From Tamlana sp. 2_MG-2023 (lineage in GTDB: Bacteria; Bacteroidota; Bacteroidia; Flavobacteriales; Flavobacteriaceae), in contig NZ_JAUOSF010000005.1 in NCBI RefSeq assembly GCF_030548465.1, forward strand, positions 310,001 through 374,000: a stretch of 64,000 nt of DNA, given 5' to 3'. The notes below the pieces were generated by a model, which saw nothing but the letters and a program-made list of their open reading frames with translations, searched no databases and was not told where the DNA came from. The number at the start of each line of letters is the position of its first letter. Position 1 is the first letter of the stretch. This document shows positions 12,447 through 47,903 of this stretch, piece by piece. Made by a program: the position numbers and the translations under genes.

Positions 12447-12510
12447 TTTGGATATTAACTTTTTCTGAACGAATATTTGCATTCACAAAGTTCAAAAAAC
12501 TTACTGAAAT

Positions 12511-12608
12511 GTTATCAAGAAAGGCAGAGGGATTAGACCCGTTGAAGCCTTAGCAACCCTTTACCTGTAAAGAAGGTGCTAAATTCTACCCTTGATCGGA
12601 TAGATAAC
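12511..12608 (+). ncRNA. SAM-I (S-box) riboswitch upstream of metY
   Basis: The S-box core is visible in order: GTTATCAAGA, GAGGGATTAGACCCG, TTGAAGCCTTAGCAACC, AAGGTGCTAAATTC and a closing GATAAC. The outer helix P1 pairs GTTATC (12511-12516) with GATAAC (12603-12608). SAM binding should switch off expression of the methionine operon that follows. A later hairpin at 12704-12741 (CAAAGA/TCTTTG around CAGAAAA/TTTTCTG) is a candidate expression platform. The 187-base distance to metY is long. Confidence 0.95.
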
Positions 12609-12749
12609 GAAACGAAATTACCTACTGTAGTTTCTAAATTCTTTATAACATTTTTCTATTAAGCACACGGTCAATAATCGTGTATTTTGACTTTTTGGTT
12701 TCTCAAAGACCCTCAGAAAATGGTTTTTTCTGTGTTCTTTGAAATTTTC

Positions 12750-17500: not shown

Positions 17501-17540
17501 TAGAGACCGTCTGGTAATTTAACCAGCTTTGACGGATTAG

Positions 17541-17629
17541 GGCATTAGGGATAGAAGCGGCATCCTTTTTTGGCCTCCTAAAAGGCGAAAAAAGATATAG
17601 CGGATAGCCCGACCCGATCGGGAAATGCC
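17541..17629 (+). ncRNA. Structured intergenic element, Flavobacteriia type (possibly flavo-1)
   Basis: The element is closed by GGCATT (17541) and AATGCC (17624). Inside are TTAGGGATAGAAGCGGC, a CTTTTTTGGCC stem, GCGGATAGCCCGACCC and a CCCGATCGGG hairpin. A second copy with the same order of motifs lies at 36329-36403. Elements with AGCCCGACC are common between genes in Flavobacteriia; I suspect the flavo-1 RNA motif but cannot confirm the Rfam match from memory. It lies between the fusion gene and metZ. Confidence 0.6.
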
Positions 17630-31760: not shown

Positions 31761-31869
31761 TGGTTGCAATTTTTATCAAAATCCTGTGAATAAAGGAATA
31801 TAGTTAGTATTTTTGTTCACGAAATCAATAACTATAAGAGTATTGAATTTTGTTCATTAACGTATTAAT

Positions 31870-31978
31870 GTTATCAAGAAAGGATGAGGGATTAGACCCG
31901 TTGAAGCCTTGGCAACCCTTTATCTGGTAAAGAAGGTGCTACGTTCTACTGATAATTAAAAATTATTGGAAAGATAAC
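31870..31978 (+). ncRNA. SAM-I (S-box) riboswitch upstream of metH
   Basis: A second S-box with the same core as 12511-12608: GTTATCAAGAAAGG, GAGGGATTAGACCCG, TTGAAGCCTTGGCAACC, AAGGTGCTACGTTC, closing GATAAC. P1 pairs 31870-31875 with 31973-31978. Only 55 bases separate it from the metH start, so control may act on translation initiation or an overlapping hairpin. Confidence 0.95.
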
Positions 31979-32033
31979 GAGGAGTGATTTTACTTTTCTT
32001 GATGATATTATACTTAAAAAATAATATCAAAAA

Positions 32034-43651: not shown

Positions 43652-43757
43652 AATTAAATTTATTTATTCAAAAATAAATGAATATATAATGTAAAGGAAG
43701 TTTTACTGTAAAATCTTTAAAACTTTTAATTAAACTGTAAAAAATATTTTATTGTGT

Positions 43758-43787
43758 TTTGATTTCTCGAAATAATAATTACTTTAG
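43758..43787 (+). promoter_or_regulatory. Promoter of the aromatic amino-acid operon
   Basis: TTTG (43758-43761) and TACTTTAG (43780-43787) with 18 bp between them fit the Bacteroidetes -33/-7 pattern. Transcription would begin about 43793, only about five bases before the leader-peptide ATG at 43798. Confidence 0.55.
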
Positions 43788-43797
43788 CGCCGTAATT

Positions 43798-43875
43798 ATG
43801 ACAACAACAGTATATTATACATTTTTTAACAACTATTTCTTTTTTAGCAAAAGAAACGAGGCGTTGTATGTATAA
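43798..43875 (+). CDS. Phe/Tyr-rich leader peptide (attenuator)
   Basis: A 25-codon frame encodes MTTTVYYTFFNNYFFFSKRN followed by EALYV and TAA. Nine of 25 residues are aromatic: five Phe and four Tyr, clustered as YY, FF and YFFF. A terminator follows 25 bases later, and then pheA, an aminotransferase, tyrA and DAHP synthase. This is the classical layout of ribosome-mediated attenuation: when charged tRNA-Phe or tRNA-Tyr is scarce, the ribosome stalls on these codons and lets an antiterminator form. CGAGGC (43857-43862), within the last leader codons, can pair with GTCTCG (43902-43907) of the terminator stem. The peptide itself probably has no function after synthesis. Confidence 0.75.
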   Translation: MTTTVYYTFFNNYFFFSKRNEALYV

Positions 43876-43900
43876 TTTATAAACATAAATTAATGATATG

Positions 43901-43929
43901 AGTCTCGATGAAAATCGAGACTTTTTTTT
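43901..43929 (+). terminator. Attenuator terminator before pheA
   Basis: A perfect 9-bp stem AGTCTCGAT/ATCGAGACT (43901-43909, 43914-43922) with a GAAA tetraloop and eight Ts (43922-43929). No gene ends just upstream on this strand other than the 25-codon leader, so it can only regulate what follows. Confidence 0.9.
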
Positions 43930-43987
43930 GTCTAAAGGATTACAGAACAAAGTGCTAAAGTTTTAGAAATTAATAAAAACTGAAAAA

Positions 43988-44815
43988 TTGATTAAAACAG
44001 TTGCCATACAAGGCGTAAGAGGATCTTTTCATCATATTGTTACCCAGCAATTTTTTGATAATCCGGTAGATTCTATTGAGTGTATGACATTCGATAGGGT
44101 TGTTGATTCTTTAATCACGAAAGAAAGTGATGCTGGAGTTATGGCTTTAGAGAATTCCATTGCGGGGTCTATAATTCCTAATTACGCGCTAATTGATAAA
44201 AATGAGTTGCATATTGTTGGAGAGCATTATTTAGATATTCAACATAATTTAATGGCGCTTAAAGGGCAAAGTATTGTAGATATCAAGGAAGTGTATTCAC
44301 ATCCTATGGCTTTATTGCAGTGTAAACAATTTTTTAGAGCTTACCCTCATATAAAGTTAGTTGAAGATAAAGATACGGCCGAAGTGGCACAGCGTATTCA
44401 AGAGAATCAACTTAAAGGTATTGGTGCTATAGCAAGTGTTGCAGCGGCTCAAATTTTTGAATTAGATATTCTGGCAGAAAGTATTCAAACGATAAAAAAT
44501 AACGAAACCCGTTTCGTTATCGTGAAGCGTAAGAATTCGGCAGTTCCAGAAAGTGAAATAAATAAAGCTTCAGTAAAATTTGAAGCCAACCATAAACGCG
44601 GAAGTCTCGCGGCAATCCTAAATGTTATGAGTGATTGCCGATTGAGTTTAACAAAAATTCAATCGTTACCAATTATTGAAACACCTTGGAAATATGCTTT
44701 TTTCGTAGATGTTACTTTTGATAGTTACGAAGATTTCAAGAAAGCAAAAGCACTTATAGAAATTATGGGTGATGCTTTTAAAGTGTTAGGAGAATATAAA
44801 AATGCGAAGTTATGA
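43988..44815 (+). CDS. pheA: Prephenate dehydratase
   Basis: The monofunctional 275-residue enzyme converts prephenate to phenylpyruvate. IQGVRGSFHH, VMALENSIAGSI, the catalytic NNETRFVIVKR block and a C-terminal ACT domain (KRGSLAAILNVMSDCRLSLT, the GALA/ESRP-like Phe-binding region) are all present. No chorismate mutase is fused at its N-terminus; that activity sits on the DAHP synthase gene downstream. The start is TTG, 58 bases after the attenuator. It overlaps the aminotransferase gene by 4 bp. Confidence 0.95.
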   Translation: MIKTVAIQGVRGSFHHIVTQQFFDNPVDSIECMTFDRVVDSLITKESDAGVMALENSIAGSIIPNYALIDKNELHIVGEHYLDIQHNLMALKGQSIVDIKEVYSHPMALLQCKQFFRAYPHIKLVEDKDTAEVAQRIQENQLKGIGAIASVAAAQIFELDILAESIQTIKNNETRFVIVKRKNSAVPESEINKASVKFEANHKRGSLAAILNVMSDCRLSLTKIQSLPIIETPWKYAFFVDVTFDSYEDFKKAKALIEIMGDAFKVLGEYKNAKL

Positions 44816-45957
44816 TTGAAGTAGCAAATCGGTTACAGACGGTTGAAGAATACTACTTTTCTAAGAAATTAAGAGAAGTAGGTGCGCTCATTGCGAGCGG
44901 TAAACCAATTATCAGTTTAGGAATTGGAAGTCCAGATATGGCACCTCCGGCAGAAGTTGTGGAAGCGATTTCTGAAAGTTTTAAAAGTCCGAACGCGCAT
45001 AAATATCAAAGTTATCAAGGTTTACCAGAGCTTCGTGAAGCCATGGCTCATTTTTATAAAACACAGTTTAGCGTAACTTTAGATCCGGCAAACGAAATTC
45101 TTCCTTTAATGGGAAGCAAGGAAGGCATCATGCACATTTCTATGGCTTACTTAAATGAAGGTGATGAAGTTTTAATCCCGAATCCTGGGTATCCAACCTA
45201 TCAATCGGTTACTAATTTAGTAGGTGCTAAAGGTGTGCTGTATAATTTGGATGCTGAAAACAATTGGATGCCAGATTTTGAAGCTTTAGAAAAGTTAGAC
45301 TTGAGCAAAGTGAAGCTGATGTGGGTAAACTACCCGCACATGCCAACGGGAGCAAAACCATCGGAAACCGTATTTGAAGATTTAGTAGCTTTTGCAAAAC
45401 GTCATAATATTTTAGTTGTAAACGATAACCCGTATAGTTTCATATTAAACGATGCGCCTAAAAGTTTATTAGAAGTTGAAGGTGCTAAAGAGGTGTGTTT
45501 AGAGCTTAACTCTTTAAGTAAAACCTTCAATATGTCTGGTTGGCGTGTTGGTATGGTTATGGGATCGGCAGAACACATTAATAATATTTTAAAAGTAAAA
45601 AGTAATATGGATTCTGGTATGTTTTTCGGCATACAAAAAGGAGCCATTGAAGCTTTAAAATGTTCAGACGAATGGTATTCAGAACTGAATAAAGTATATG
45701 AGGTACGTCGTAAATTGGTGTGGCAATTAGCAGATGCCTTAAACTGTACTTACGATGAAAATGCTTCAGGATTATTCATTTGGGCTAAATTGCCAGAAGG
45801 TGTAAAATCGGAAGCTTTTATAGATAAAATTTTAATTGAAAAAAATATTTTCATCACACCTGGAACCGTTTTCGGAACTCAAGGTGAAGGATATATTAGG
45901 TTTTCATTATGTGCAACAAGTGTTGCCATTAAAGAAACCATAGCAAGAGTAAAATAA
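44812..45957 (+). CDS. Class I/II aminotransferase of aromatic synthesis
   Basis: A 381-residue fold-type I PLP enzyme. LGIGSPDMAPP, PNPGYPTYQS, VNDNPYSFIL and the PLP lysine in SLSKTFNMSGWRVGM are clear. Lying between pheA and tyrA and overlapping pheA by 4 bp, it probably transaminates prephenate, phenylpyruvate or hydroxyphenylpyruvate. Related enzymes are annotated as aspartate aminotransferases or LL-diaminopimelate-type aminotransferases, so exact specificity is uncertain. Confidence 0.9.
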   Translation: MIEVANRLQTVEEYYFSKKLREVGALIASGKPIISLGIGSPDMAPPAEVVEAISESFKSPNAHKYQSYQGLPELREAMAHFYKTQFSVTLDPANEILPLMGSKEGIMHISMAYLNEGDEVLIPNPGYPTYQSVTNLVGAKGVLYNLDAENNWMPDFEALEKLDLSKVKLMWVNYPHMPTGAKPSETVFEDLVAFAKRHNILVVNDNPYSFILNDAPKSLLEVEGAKEVCLELNSLSKTFNMSGWRVGMVMGSAEHINNILKVKSNMDSGMFFGIQKGAIEALKCSDEWYSELNKVYEVRRKLVWQLADALNCTYDENASGLFIWAKLPEGVKSEAFIDKILIEKNIFITPGTVFGTQGEGYIRFSLCATSVAIKETIARVK

Positions 45958-45959
45958 GT

Positions 45960-46811
45960 ATGAAAAATATATATGCAATAGGTGTTGGTTTAATAGGGGG
46001 AAGTCTTGCTATAGATATTAAAAAGAATAATCCAGAGGCGGTTATTCATGGTATTAGTAGAAAAGATGGCACGCTTAATAAAGCACTTGAGCTTAATATA
46101 ATTGACAAAAAAGCAACTTTAGACGATCTTGAAAATGCCGATTTGGTTATTATTTCTATTCCTGTTGATGCTACCGTAAAATTACTCCCTACAATTTTAG
46201 ATAAAATATCTGATACGACATTGGTTGTAGATGCGGGTTCAACTAAAGTAGATATTTGTAAGGCCGTAGAAGATCACCCAAGACGAAGAAATTTTCTTGC
46301 CATGCACCCCATTGCAGGTACAGAGCACTCTGGGCCAACAGCAGCATTAGCTGGTTTGTTTGTAGGGAAAACAAATATTGTTTGCGAGGTTGAAAAAACA
46401 ACGTTTAAACTTCAAGAGAAAGCTTTGAAGTTGTTCACAGATATCGGGATGCGTATTCGTTATATGAACCCTGAAGCACACGATAAACATATAGCTTATG
46501 TGTCGCACTTATCGCACATTAGCTCGTTTATGTTAGGTAAGACGGTTATTGAAAAAGAACGTAACGAACGTGATATTTTCGATATGGCGGGCAGTGGATT
46601 TGCATCTACTGTGCGTTTGGCAAAAAGTTCGCCAGAAATGTGGACGCCAATTTTTAAGCAGAATAAAACCAATGTTATTGAAACATTAGAAGAATATATT
46701 AACAACCTTACTAAATTTAAAGAATTCATGCAAAAGGATGATTTCGATGCTATTTTTAGTGAGATGGAAAGTACAAATCATATCAAAGAAATTTTAAAAG
46801 GAATTAGTTAA
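45960..46811 (+). CDS. tyrA: Prephenate dehydrogenase
   Basis: The 283-residue enzyme oxidises prephenate (or arogenate) to the tyrosine precursor. IGVGLIGGSLAIDI is the NAD(P)-binding Rossmann motif; MHPIAGTEHSGPTAA contains the catalytic His, and AYVSHLSHISSFML and GSGFASTVRLAKSSPEMW are family blocks. It lacks a C-terminal ACT domain and an N-terminal chorismate mutase. It starts 2 bp after the aminotransferase gene. Confidence 0.95.
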   Translation: MKNIYAIGVGLIGGSLAIDIKKNNPEAVIHGISRKDGTLNKALELNIIDKKATLDDLENADLVIISIPVDATVKLLPTILDKISDTTLVVDAGSTKVDICKAVEDHPRRRNFLAMHPIAGTEHSGPTAALAGLFVGKTNIVCEVEKTTFKLQEKALKLFTDIGMRIRYMNPEAHDKHIAYVSHLSHISSFMLGKTVIEKERNERDIFDMAGSGFASTVRLAKSSPEMWTPIFKQNKTNVIETLEEYINNLTKFKEFMQKDDFDAIFSEMESTNHIKEILKGIS

Positions 46812-46820
46812 GCTAAAATT

Positions 46821-47903
46821 ATGGAAAACAACAAAGAAATGAGAAAGTGGTTAGATGATTTAAATTTAGATCATCCACTAGTAATTGCAGGACCTTGTAG
46901 TGCTGAAACGGAAGAGCAAGTTTTAAAAATTGCGCATGAGTTAAAAGATACCGATGTTACTTATTTTAGAGCAGGAATCTGGAAACCAAGAACACGTCCG
47001 GGAATGTTTGAAGGTGTTGGTGCATTGGGCTTAAAATGGTTACAGAAAGTGAAAGCAGAAACAGGGATGAAAATCTGTACGGAAGTTGCAAATGCAGCGC
47101 ACGTAAAATTAGCTTTAGAACATGATGTTGATTTATTATGGATTGGCGCGCGTTCTACAGTAAGTCCTTTTATCATGCAAGAAATTGCAGATGCTTTAGA
47201 AGGAACAGATAAGCCTGTATTAATTAAGAATCCAGTAAATCCAGATTTAGCCTTATGGTTAGGTGGTATCGAAAGAATCTACGCGGCTGGAGTGAAAAAT
47301 ATTGGAGCGATTCATAGAGGTTTTTCAACTTACGAAAAAACGAAATATAGAAACAACCCAGAATGGCAATTGGCTATTGAGTTTCAAAATAAATACCCAG
47401 ACATTCCTTTAATTAACGATCCGTCGCACATTACAGGAAAAAGAGATATGATTTTTGATGTGTCTCAGTCAGCTTTAGATTTAAACTTTGACGGATTAAT
47501 GATTGAAACACATTACGATCCAGAAAATGCATGGAGTGATGCTGCACAGCAAGTGACACCTTCTACTTTAGTTCAAATTATGAGAGATTTGAAAATTAGA
47601 AAAGAAACAAATGCTGAAGCAGATTACACAAATGCTTTAGAGAACTTAAGAGCTCAAATTGACGTTGTTGATAATCAAATTATAGAATTATTAGGAAAAC
47701 GTATGAAAGCTGCCGATGGTATTGGTCAGTTGAAAAAAGATAAGAACGTTGCAGTTCTTCAATCGAAACGTTGGAATGAGATTTTAGGAAAAATGGTTAT
47801 TGAAGGAGAACAATATGGTTTAAGTGAAGAATTCATTTTAAAAATGTTCAAAGCAATTCACCAAGAATCAATTAATCACCAAGAAAAAATTCTTCAATCA
47901 TAA
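46821..47903 (+). CDS. Bifunctional DAHP synthase/chorismate mutase
   Basis: Residues 1-about 260 are a short type I DAHP synthase of the AroF/AroA-beta kind (VIAGPCSAETEEQ, GIWKPRTRPGMFEG, INDPSHITGKRD), which makes the first shikimate-pathway intermediate. Residues of about 272-360 are an AroQ chorismate mutase (LRAQIDVVDNQIIELLGKRM, KKDKNVAVLQSKRW). Chorismate or prephenate bound at the mutase part can feed back on the synthase in such fusions. It closes the operon, so entry enzyme and branch enzymes share the Phe/Tyr attenuator. aroA lies separately at 54748. Confidence 0.95.
   Translation: MENNKEMRKWLDDLNLDHPLVIAGPCSAETEEQVLKIAHELKDTDVTYFRAGIWKPRTRPGMFEGVGALGLKWLQKVKAETGMKICTEVANAAHVKLALEHDVDLLWIGARSTVSPFIMQEIADALEGTDKPVLIKNPVNPDLALWLGGIERIYAAGVKNIGAIHRGFSTYEKTKYRNNPEWQLAIEFQNKYPDIPLINDPSHITGKRDMIFDVSQSALDLNFDGLMIETHYDPENAWSDAAQQVTPSTLVQIMRDLKIRKETNAEADYTNALENLRAQIDVVDNQIIELLGKRMKAADGIGQLKKDKNVAVLQSKRWNEILGKMVIEGEQYGLSEEFILKMFKAIHQESINHQEKILQS

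Follow-up and report, generated by a model that had tools for sequence, protein, structure and literature searches.

A predicted leader-peptide attenuator with Phe and Tyr codons upstream of the pheA operon in Flavobacteriaceae and other Bacteroidia

The forward strand of the window (the whole stretch of 64,000 nt that was analysed) carries a pheA operon, which starts with pheA itself, predicted to encode prephenate dehydratase from a TTG start (43988-44815). It is followed by a gene for a PLP aminotransferase, probably an aromatic aminotransferase by context (44812-45957), by tyrA, encoding prephenate dehydrogenase (45960-46811), and by a gene for a DAHP synthase with a C-terminal chorismate mutase domain (46821-47903). 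The gene names rest on profile matches and, among the matches listed, only the prephenate dehydrogenase and the neighbouring gldA passed a curated cut-off. Most of the 100 wider loci described below likewise have a relative of the PLP aminotransferase gene after pheA. In the 80 close relatives, the first matched residue of PheA corresponded to ATG in 48, TTG in 27, GTG in 2 and AAA in 3 cases.

Upstream of pheA we found the promoter-like pair that the first-pass annotation had placed at 43758-43787, consisting of TTTG (43758-43761) and TACTTTAG (43780-43787) on the forward strand. We take this pair to resemble the TTTG / TAnnTTTG promoter type of Bacteroidota; it was absent from the output of a sigma-70 scan of the window. 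The downstream box is also kept in relatives, as a match to at least five of its six fixed bases was present in 153 of 160 distinct upstream regions versus 899 of 1600 shuffled ones, and in 106 of these 153 a TTG or TTTG begins 22 nt ahead of the box. The box ends 10 nt before the ATG of a short open reading frame, and a very short 5' UTR is therefore predicted, so that translation of the leader would begin almost at the 5' end of the transcript. A Shine-Dalgarno-like motif preceded the leader in 4 of the 160 upstream regions, as rarely as in shuffled sequences (40 of 1600). Bacteroidota rarely use Shine-Dalgarno signals and have a promoter type of their own.

The short frame (MTTTVYYTFFNNYFFFSKRNEALYV, 43798-43875, forward strand) has 25 codons, including five Phe and four Tyr codons, and on this point reading the sequence agreed with the first-pass annotation. 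Based on a codon profile of 157 distinct loci, the candidate sensing codons are Y6 Y7, F9 F10 and Y13 F14 F15 F16 (43813-43845). Among the 989 short ATG frames of the window, this leader alone has at least eight aromatic codons within 12 codons, and four other frames have seven.

An intrinsic terminator, GAGTCTCGAT-GAAA-ATCGAGACTT (43900-43923), is located between the leader and pheA, and its T tract (TTTTTTTT, 43922-43929) ends 58 nt from the pheA start. The GAAA loop and the eight Us had been described correctly before, whereas the stem has ten pairs instead of the nine given. The 5' arm of the terminator (strand 3, 43900-43909) contains the core GTCTCG (43902-43907), and strand 4 (43914-43929) comprises the 3' arm and the T tract, as read from the sequence and a terminator scan. 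The same core can form six pairs, one of them G-U, with CGAGGC at 43857-43862 (strand 2), giving a mutually exclusive antiterminator that shares the 5' arm of the terminator; this is the pairing proposed earlier. In addition, strand 1 (43814-43822) is predicted to act as a protector by pairing with 43868-43876, a segment that extends over the last leader codons and the stop. This 1:2 hairpin appeared in the minimum-energy folds of both the full leader and the RNA ending at 43898. In the fold of the window sequence it pairs only two of the six bases of strand 2, which it encloses without pairing most of it.

We determined how well these helices are kept in an alignment of 76 of the 77 distinct close sequences, L043 having been left out as over-long. 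The terminator cells were paired in 99.6% and those of the 2:3 antiterminator in 98.5%, with A-U and G-U pairs alternating in the latter. The GTCTCG core was identical in all 76 sequences. No two-sided changes in 2:3 or 3:4 were found among these 76, as is expected if strand 3 has to satisfy two partners, and the covariation of these two cores thus rests on the wider set. The protector helix (43814-43822 with 43868-43876) was paired in 93.3% of cells, with 15 two-sided cells, a number not reached in any of 500 shuffles, and with two-sided changes at three pairs, which was reached in 80 of 500. A different protector, ACAAC (43801-43805) with GTTGT (43863-43867), had been suggested by the first-pass annotation. 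Both motifs are present in the window and they covary, the number of two-sided cells (14) being higher than in any of 500 shuffles. Variation of the start codon and rows with gaps (13 rows at three of the five pairs) blur the columns of this helix. However, this helix was less often paired (80.2% versus 93.3%), and it was absent from the folds made. Judging from the aligned sequences, the protector appears better placed at 43814-43822 with 43868-43876, with ACAAC:GTTGT as a possible pairing.

The fold of the full leader RNA was more stable than that of any of 200 shuffled sequences (z = -4.4). The transcript cut at 43906 had an unexceptional fold (z = -1.1, with 31 of 200 shuffles as stable). 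When the growing RNA was folded, 1:2 was obtained up to 43898, 2:3 with the end at 43906, and 1:2 together with 3:4 at full length. The 2:3 helix hence wins at 43906 in a fold without any ribosome, which counts against attenuation by a ribosome.

To describe the distribution of the element we used 181 pheA loci, consisting of the window, 80 named close relatives (the best 80 of 554 PheA relatives, with Tamlana in the top two places) and 100 wider loci; independence cannot be assumed for these loci, and least of all for the 80 close ones. The class sampled is presumably Bacteroidia, the window belonging to Flavobacteriaceae as its nearest named relatives suggest. From a search of the family, 59 of the 70 matched genomes were taken, leaving out the own genome and ten with a PheA identity of at least 81%, similar to that of the named relatives. 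A search of the phylum matched 172 genomes, of which 41 were taken first (16 more from the same family, 23 from the class and 2 from beyond it), and a further 20 were added later. Passed over were two genomes from the same order and one from the class that had weak matches. A script that required at least six aromatic codons in 12 codons and a terminator score of at least 15 found a leader with a terminator in 168 of the 181 loci, all 168 passing the same terminator score. When 179 upstream regions were shuffled with their dinucleotides kept, 1 of 1790 shuffles passed both requirements. The real clusters hold 7-10 aromatic codons in 12. The first-pass annotation had predicted that the aromatic cluster and the terminator would be conserved in relatives while other bases drift, and this is the pattern that the alignment of relatives gave; an aromatic-rich frame is indeed a regular part of these loci.

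The 13 loci not recognized by the script were read individually. Five of them have a leader and a terminator. In L172 and L174 both are present and the script had picked another frame, and in L079, L091 and L113 they are located 457-646 nt upstream, behind extra sequence (the leader of L079 lies 539 nt upstream of pheA). Hundreds of bases separate the leader and terminator from pheA in these last three loci, and in L079 this sequence contains a repeated motif. Contig ends cut two further loci, leaving the leader end and the terminator in L060 and the tail and the terminator in L066. The element was absent from the remaining six (L122, L130 with 373 nt upstream examined, L157-L159 and L181). 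Sorted by kinship, the element was present in 73 of 75 wider loci of the same family and in 20 of 23 from five other families of the class (f3, f4, f5, f8, f9), the three misses coming from one genus. Outside the class, one of two wider loci had it (L160 and not L181), as did three (L190-L192) of 20 further regions, with 17 lacking it and L208 being doubtful. The PheA proteins of L190-L192 are 42-44% identical to that of the window and the most similar to it among those 20 regions.

The position of the aromatic codons relative to strand 2 was uniform in the 157 distinct loci. The aromatic share was 100% at 21 nt from strand 2, 99% at 18 nt and 95% at 15 nt, and decreased to 42% at 12 nt, 6% at 9 nt and 0-1% from 6 to -3 nt, so that the aromatic codons end 12-15 nt ahead of strand 2, approximately the distance that the leading edge of a stalled ribosome would cover. 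In the window the Phe run ends with F16, whose first base lies 14 nt ahead of strand 2. The spacing of the codons matches that of a ribosome stalled with aromatic codons in its A site and with its edge just short of strand 2, and stalling at these control codons would leave strand 2 free. However, of the 116 loci that extend far enough, 49% keep a late Tyr codon approximately 9 nt beyond the first base of strand 2 (Tyr24 in the window). A stall at this codon should cover strand 2, and this counts against a simple attenuator reading. In the window the codon is part of the 3' segment that pairs with strand 1, a possible reason for its conservation.

These data also bear on a rival reading in which the hairpin would serve as a constitutive terminator or as a riboswitch for a metabolite, the reading frame being an accident of AT-rich, T-rich sequence. 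Phe codons are cheap in T-rich DNA, and at least six aromatic codons in 12 were indeed obtained in 193 of 1790 shuffles, but eight in 12 were reached in 7 of 1790 shuffles versus 160 of 170 real clusters. An accident would also be at odds with the fixed distance of the cluster from strand 2 and with the presence of Trp codons (TGG) in 99 of the 168 scripted leaders, the leader of the window having none. As for a riboswitch, no Rfam family matched the element at its gathering score; with a permissive threshold, eight matches were obtained in 43700-44000, all under the gathering scores of their families. We therefore regard this explanation as very unlikely. Phe and Tyr are both present in all 168 scripted leaders, and a mixed aromatic signal would be sensible as the DAHP synthase of the operon is needed for all three amino acids.

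Between lineages strand 3 varies (GTCTCG, GTCCCG, ATCCCG, ATCCTG, GTCCTG, GCCTCG and GCCTTG, and GAGTTCTC in more distant loci), and strand 2 in the leader tail changes to match these variants; this tally, and no other, omits 9 of the 168 arms, which lay outside a register of six bases. When 66 distinct arms were paired with their own tails, the summed 2:3 energy was -775 kcal/mol, compared to -532 (sd 18.5) and at the lowest -604 after 20000 re-assignments of the tails. Similarly, the protector helix 1:2 gave a sum of -2075 versus -1559 (sd 31) on re-assignment. Both comparisons keep phylogeny in, as the members of the wider set are related. With shuffles of each locus's own tail, 2:3 was among the best 5% in 137 of 157 distinct loci and 1:2 in 100 of 157. 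For the window, none of 100 own shuffles matched its 2:3 and 11 of 100 matched its 1:2, the latter being not exceptional. L167 has a poor 2:3 pairing (-3.0). The sequence and these comparisons show the parts of the element with their order and spacing, and they show that strand 2 has coevolved with the terminator and the two sides of the 1:2 helix with each other.

The leader stop falls before or within strand 2 in 32 of the 168 loci, which, like the lack of the element in six loci, the unexceptional 1:2 of the window and the poor 2:3 of L167, counts against a leader-peptide attenuator. In L008, L019, L020, L055 and L064 it comes right after FFFS, ahead of strand 2, and the RNA of the pairing tail is kept. 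Alternatively, the nascent peptide itself might sense a ligand and arrest the ribosome, as in TnaC, instead of decoding being slowed by a scarce tRNA. The wide conservation of FYFFFS and of the tail E.LYV in close relatives would suit such a peptide, but beyond the close relatives the RNA pairing persists with other residues in the tail, and F, Y and W occur in varying order. Such a pattern fits a role for codon identity and RNA structure, and peptide-mediated arrest seems highly improbable. Equally improbable is a mainly translational control in which the hairpin hides the pheA start. It would suit the 64 of 168 loci in which the T tract ends at most 6 nt from that start, but the tract ends more than 30 nt away in 58 of 168, including the window, and hundreds of bases away in three loci; the T tract itself is weak evidence against it, as the scan required one.

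Taken together, we consider it very probable from these sequence features that the element is a ribosome-mediated transcription attenuator of a joint Phe/Tyr operon. RNA polymerase would start just ahead of the leader frame, with a ribosome following. A shortage of charged tRNA-Phe or tRNA-Tyr would make it stall in the aromatic run at codons 6-16. The stalled ribosome would disrupt strand 1 and leave strand 2 (CGAGGC) free to pair with strand 3 (GTCTCG). Formation of 2:3 would block the terminator 3:4, and the genes for PheA, the aminotransferase, TyrA and the DAHP synthase would be transcribed. With plentiful charged tRNAs the ribosome would reach the stop codon and cover strand 2, so that 3:4 could form and transcription would end in the T tract. 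If there is no ribosome, the 1:2 hairpin could form first and enclose strand 2, which would favour termination. Coupling, stalling and read-through are what we infer from the arrangement, as are the amino acids that count: most likely Phe, likely Tyr, and Trp in the relatives that code for it.

Other leaders were observed in the genome to which the window belongs. A His-rich leader (MTFIHLHHHFKICNQAK) with a terminator lies just before hisG (L182:1187-1310), an Ile/Val-rich leader (MKKQIIQVVSIIVIVIISQG) of the Ile/Val/Leu type with a terminator lies before ilvD (L183:1074-1200), and a Trp leader (MKTILNNSWWWCFRN) with a terminator lies before trpE on the minus strand of L187 and matches the Rfam family RF01692 (Bacteroid-trp). 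Attenuation by peptide leaders hence looks like a common control of amino-acid synthesis in this genome. No leader was found at the homoserine dehydrogenase loci, where the flanks may fall short of the gene start. Near the ilvD leader, on the other strand, there is a match to the SAM-II riboswitch (L183 885-967), and the window itself contains two SAM riboswitches and one Flavo-1 RNA (12509-12610, 31868-31980 and 17517-17618; Rfam). RF01692 was absent over its gathering score at the pheA element of the window and at nine other pheA loci scanned.

Predicted attenuators were reportedly described by Vitreschak (2004) and Lopatovskaya (2010), and such attenuators may have been predicted earlier in Bacteroidetes. 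Leader-peptide attenuation is textbook knowledge for pheA, the pheL leader of Escherichia coli sensing Phe. It has the same three-strand logic, Phe codons and pheA as its target, whereas the leaders of the window and its relatives have Phe, Tyr and often Trp codons, with tyrA and the DAHP synthase gene in the operon. The E. coli pheA attenuator with its pheL leader is also named in a review (PMC11802643), according to which AroR, a Phe-Tyr-Phe leader before a DAHP synthase operon of Corynebacterium glutamicum, reportedly senses Phe but not Tyr. AroR resembles the leader of the window in its mixed Phe/Tyr codons before an operon of the entry enzyme, but it belongs to another phylum and another operon.

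Closer to the window, a structured 5' element conserved in other genera was reported in 2021 before pheA in Flavobacterium psychrophilum, together with strong indications of attenuation by leader peptides ahead of amino-acid operons (PMC9723704). The gene and the family, Flavobacteriaceae, are the same as here, and the relevant passages of that report describe the element without its amino acids, strands, spacing or reach beyond the family. Bacteroid-trp (RF01692) was described as a leader RNA with a peptide leader in Bacteroidetes (Weinberg 2010, PMC2864571); by its name it is specific for Trp, and it had no match to the pheA elements scanned. Small ORFs reminiscent of leader peptides are mentioned for Bacteroides (PMC7366714). 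According to the authors of a study from 2010, to their knowledge and apart from one atypical case, no example from beyond Proteobacteria and Actinobacteria had been demonstrated (PMC2965389). Among the literature matches listed, from a search outside of which most subscription journals lay, no attenuator of this type had been studied experimentally in Bacteroidota. A pheA attenuator in Flavobacteriaceae was thus partly anticipated, as far as these accounts go, by PMC9723704 and by the Bacteroid-trp family of Rfam. Our analysis adds that the element extends to five further families of the class, that its strands coevolve and that its coding is mixed for Phe and Tyr, often with Trp.

To our knowledge, it has been little tested whether the ribosomes of Bacteroidota trail RNA polymerase closely enough for classic attenuation. 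Tentatively, and with somewhat less than even confidence, we suggest that one leader might sense any of three amino acids, Phe, Tyr and, if its codons are present, Trp, setting the entry enzyme and the enzymes of both branches across much of Bacteroidia, with ribosomes that need no Shine-Dalgarno signal to load on an almost leaderless transcript. An attenuator that depends on coupling and is kept in the family and in five others would be indirect evidence of coupling in these bacteria, and it offers an assay for it. The mixed coding for Phe, Tyr and Trp would likewise provide a testable case of a single leader that integrates several amino acids for a shared pathway.
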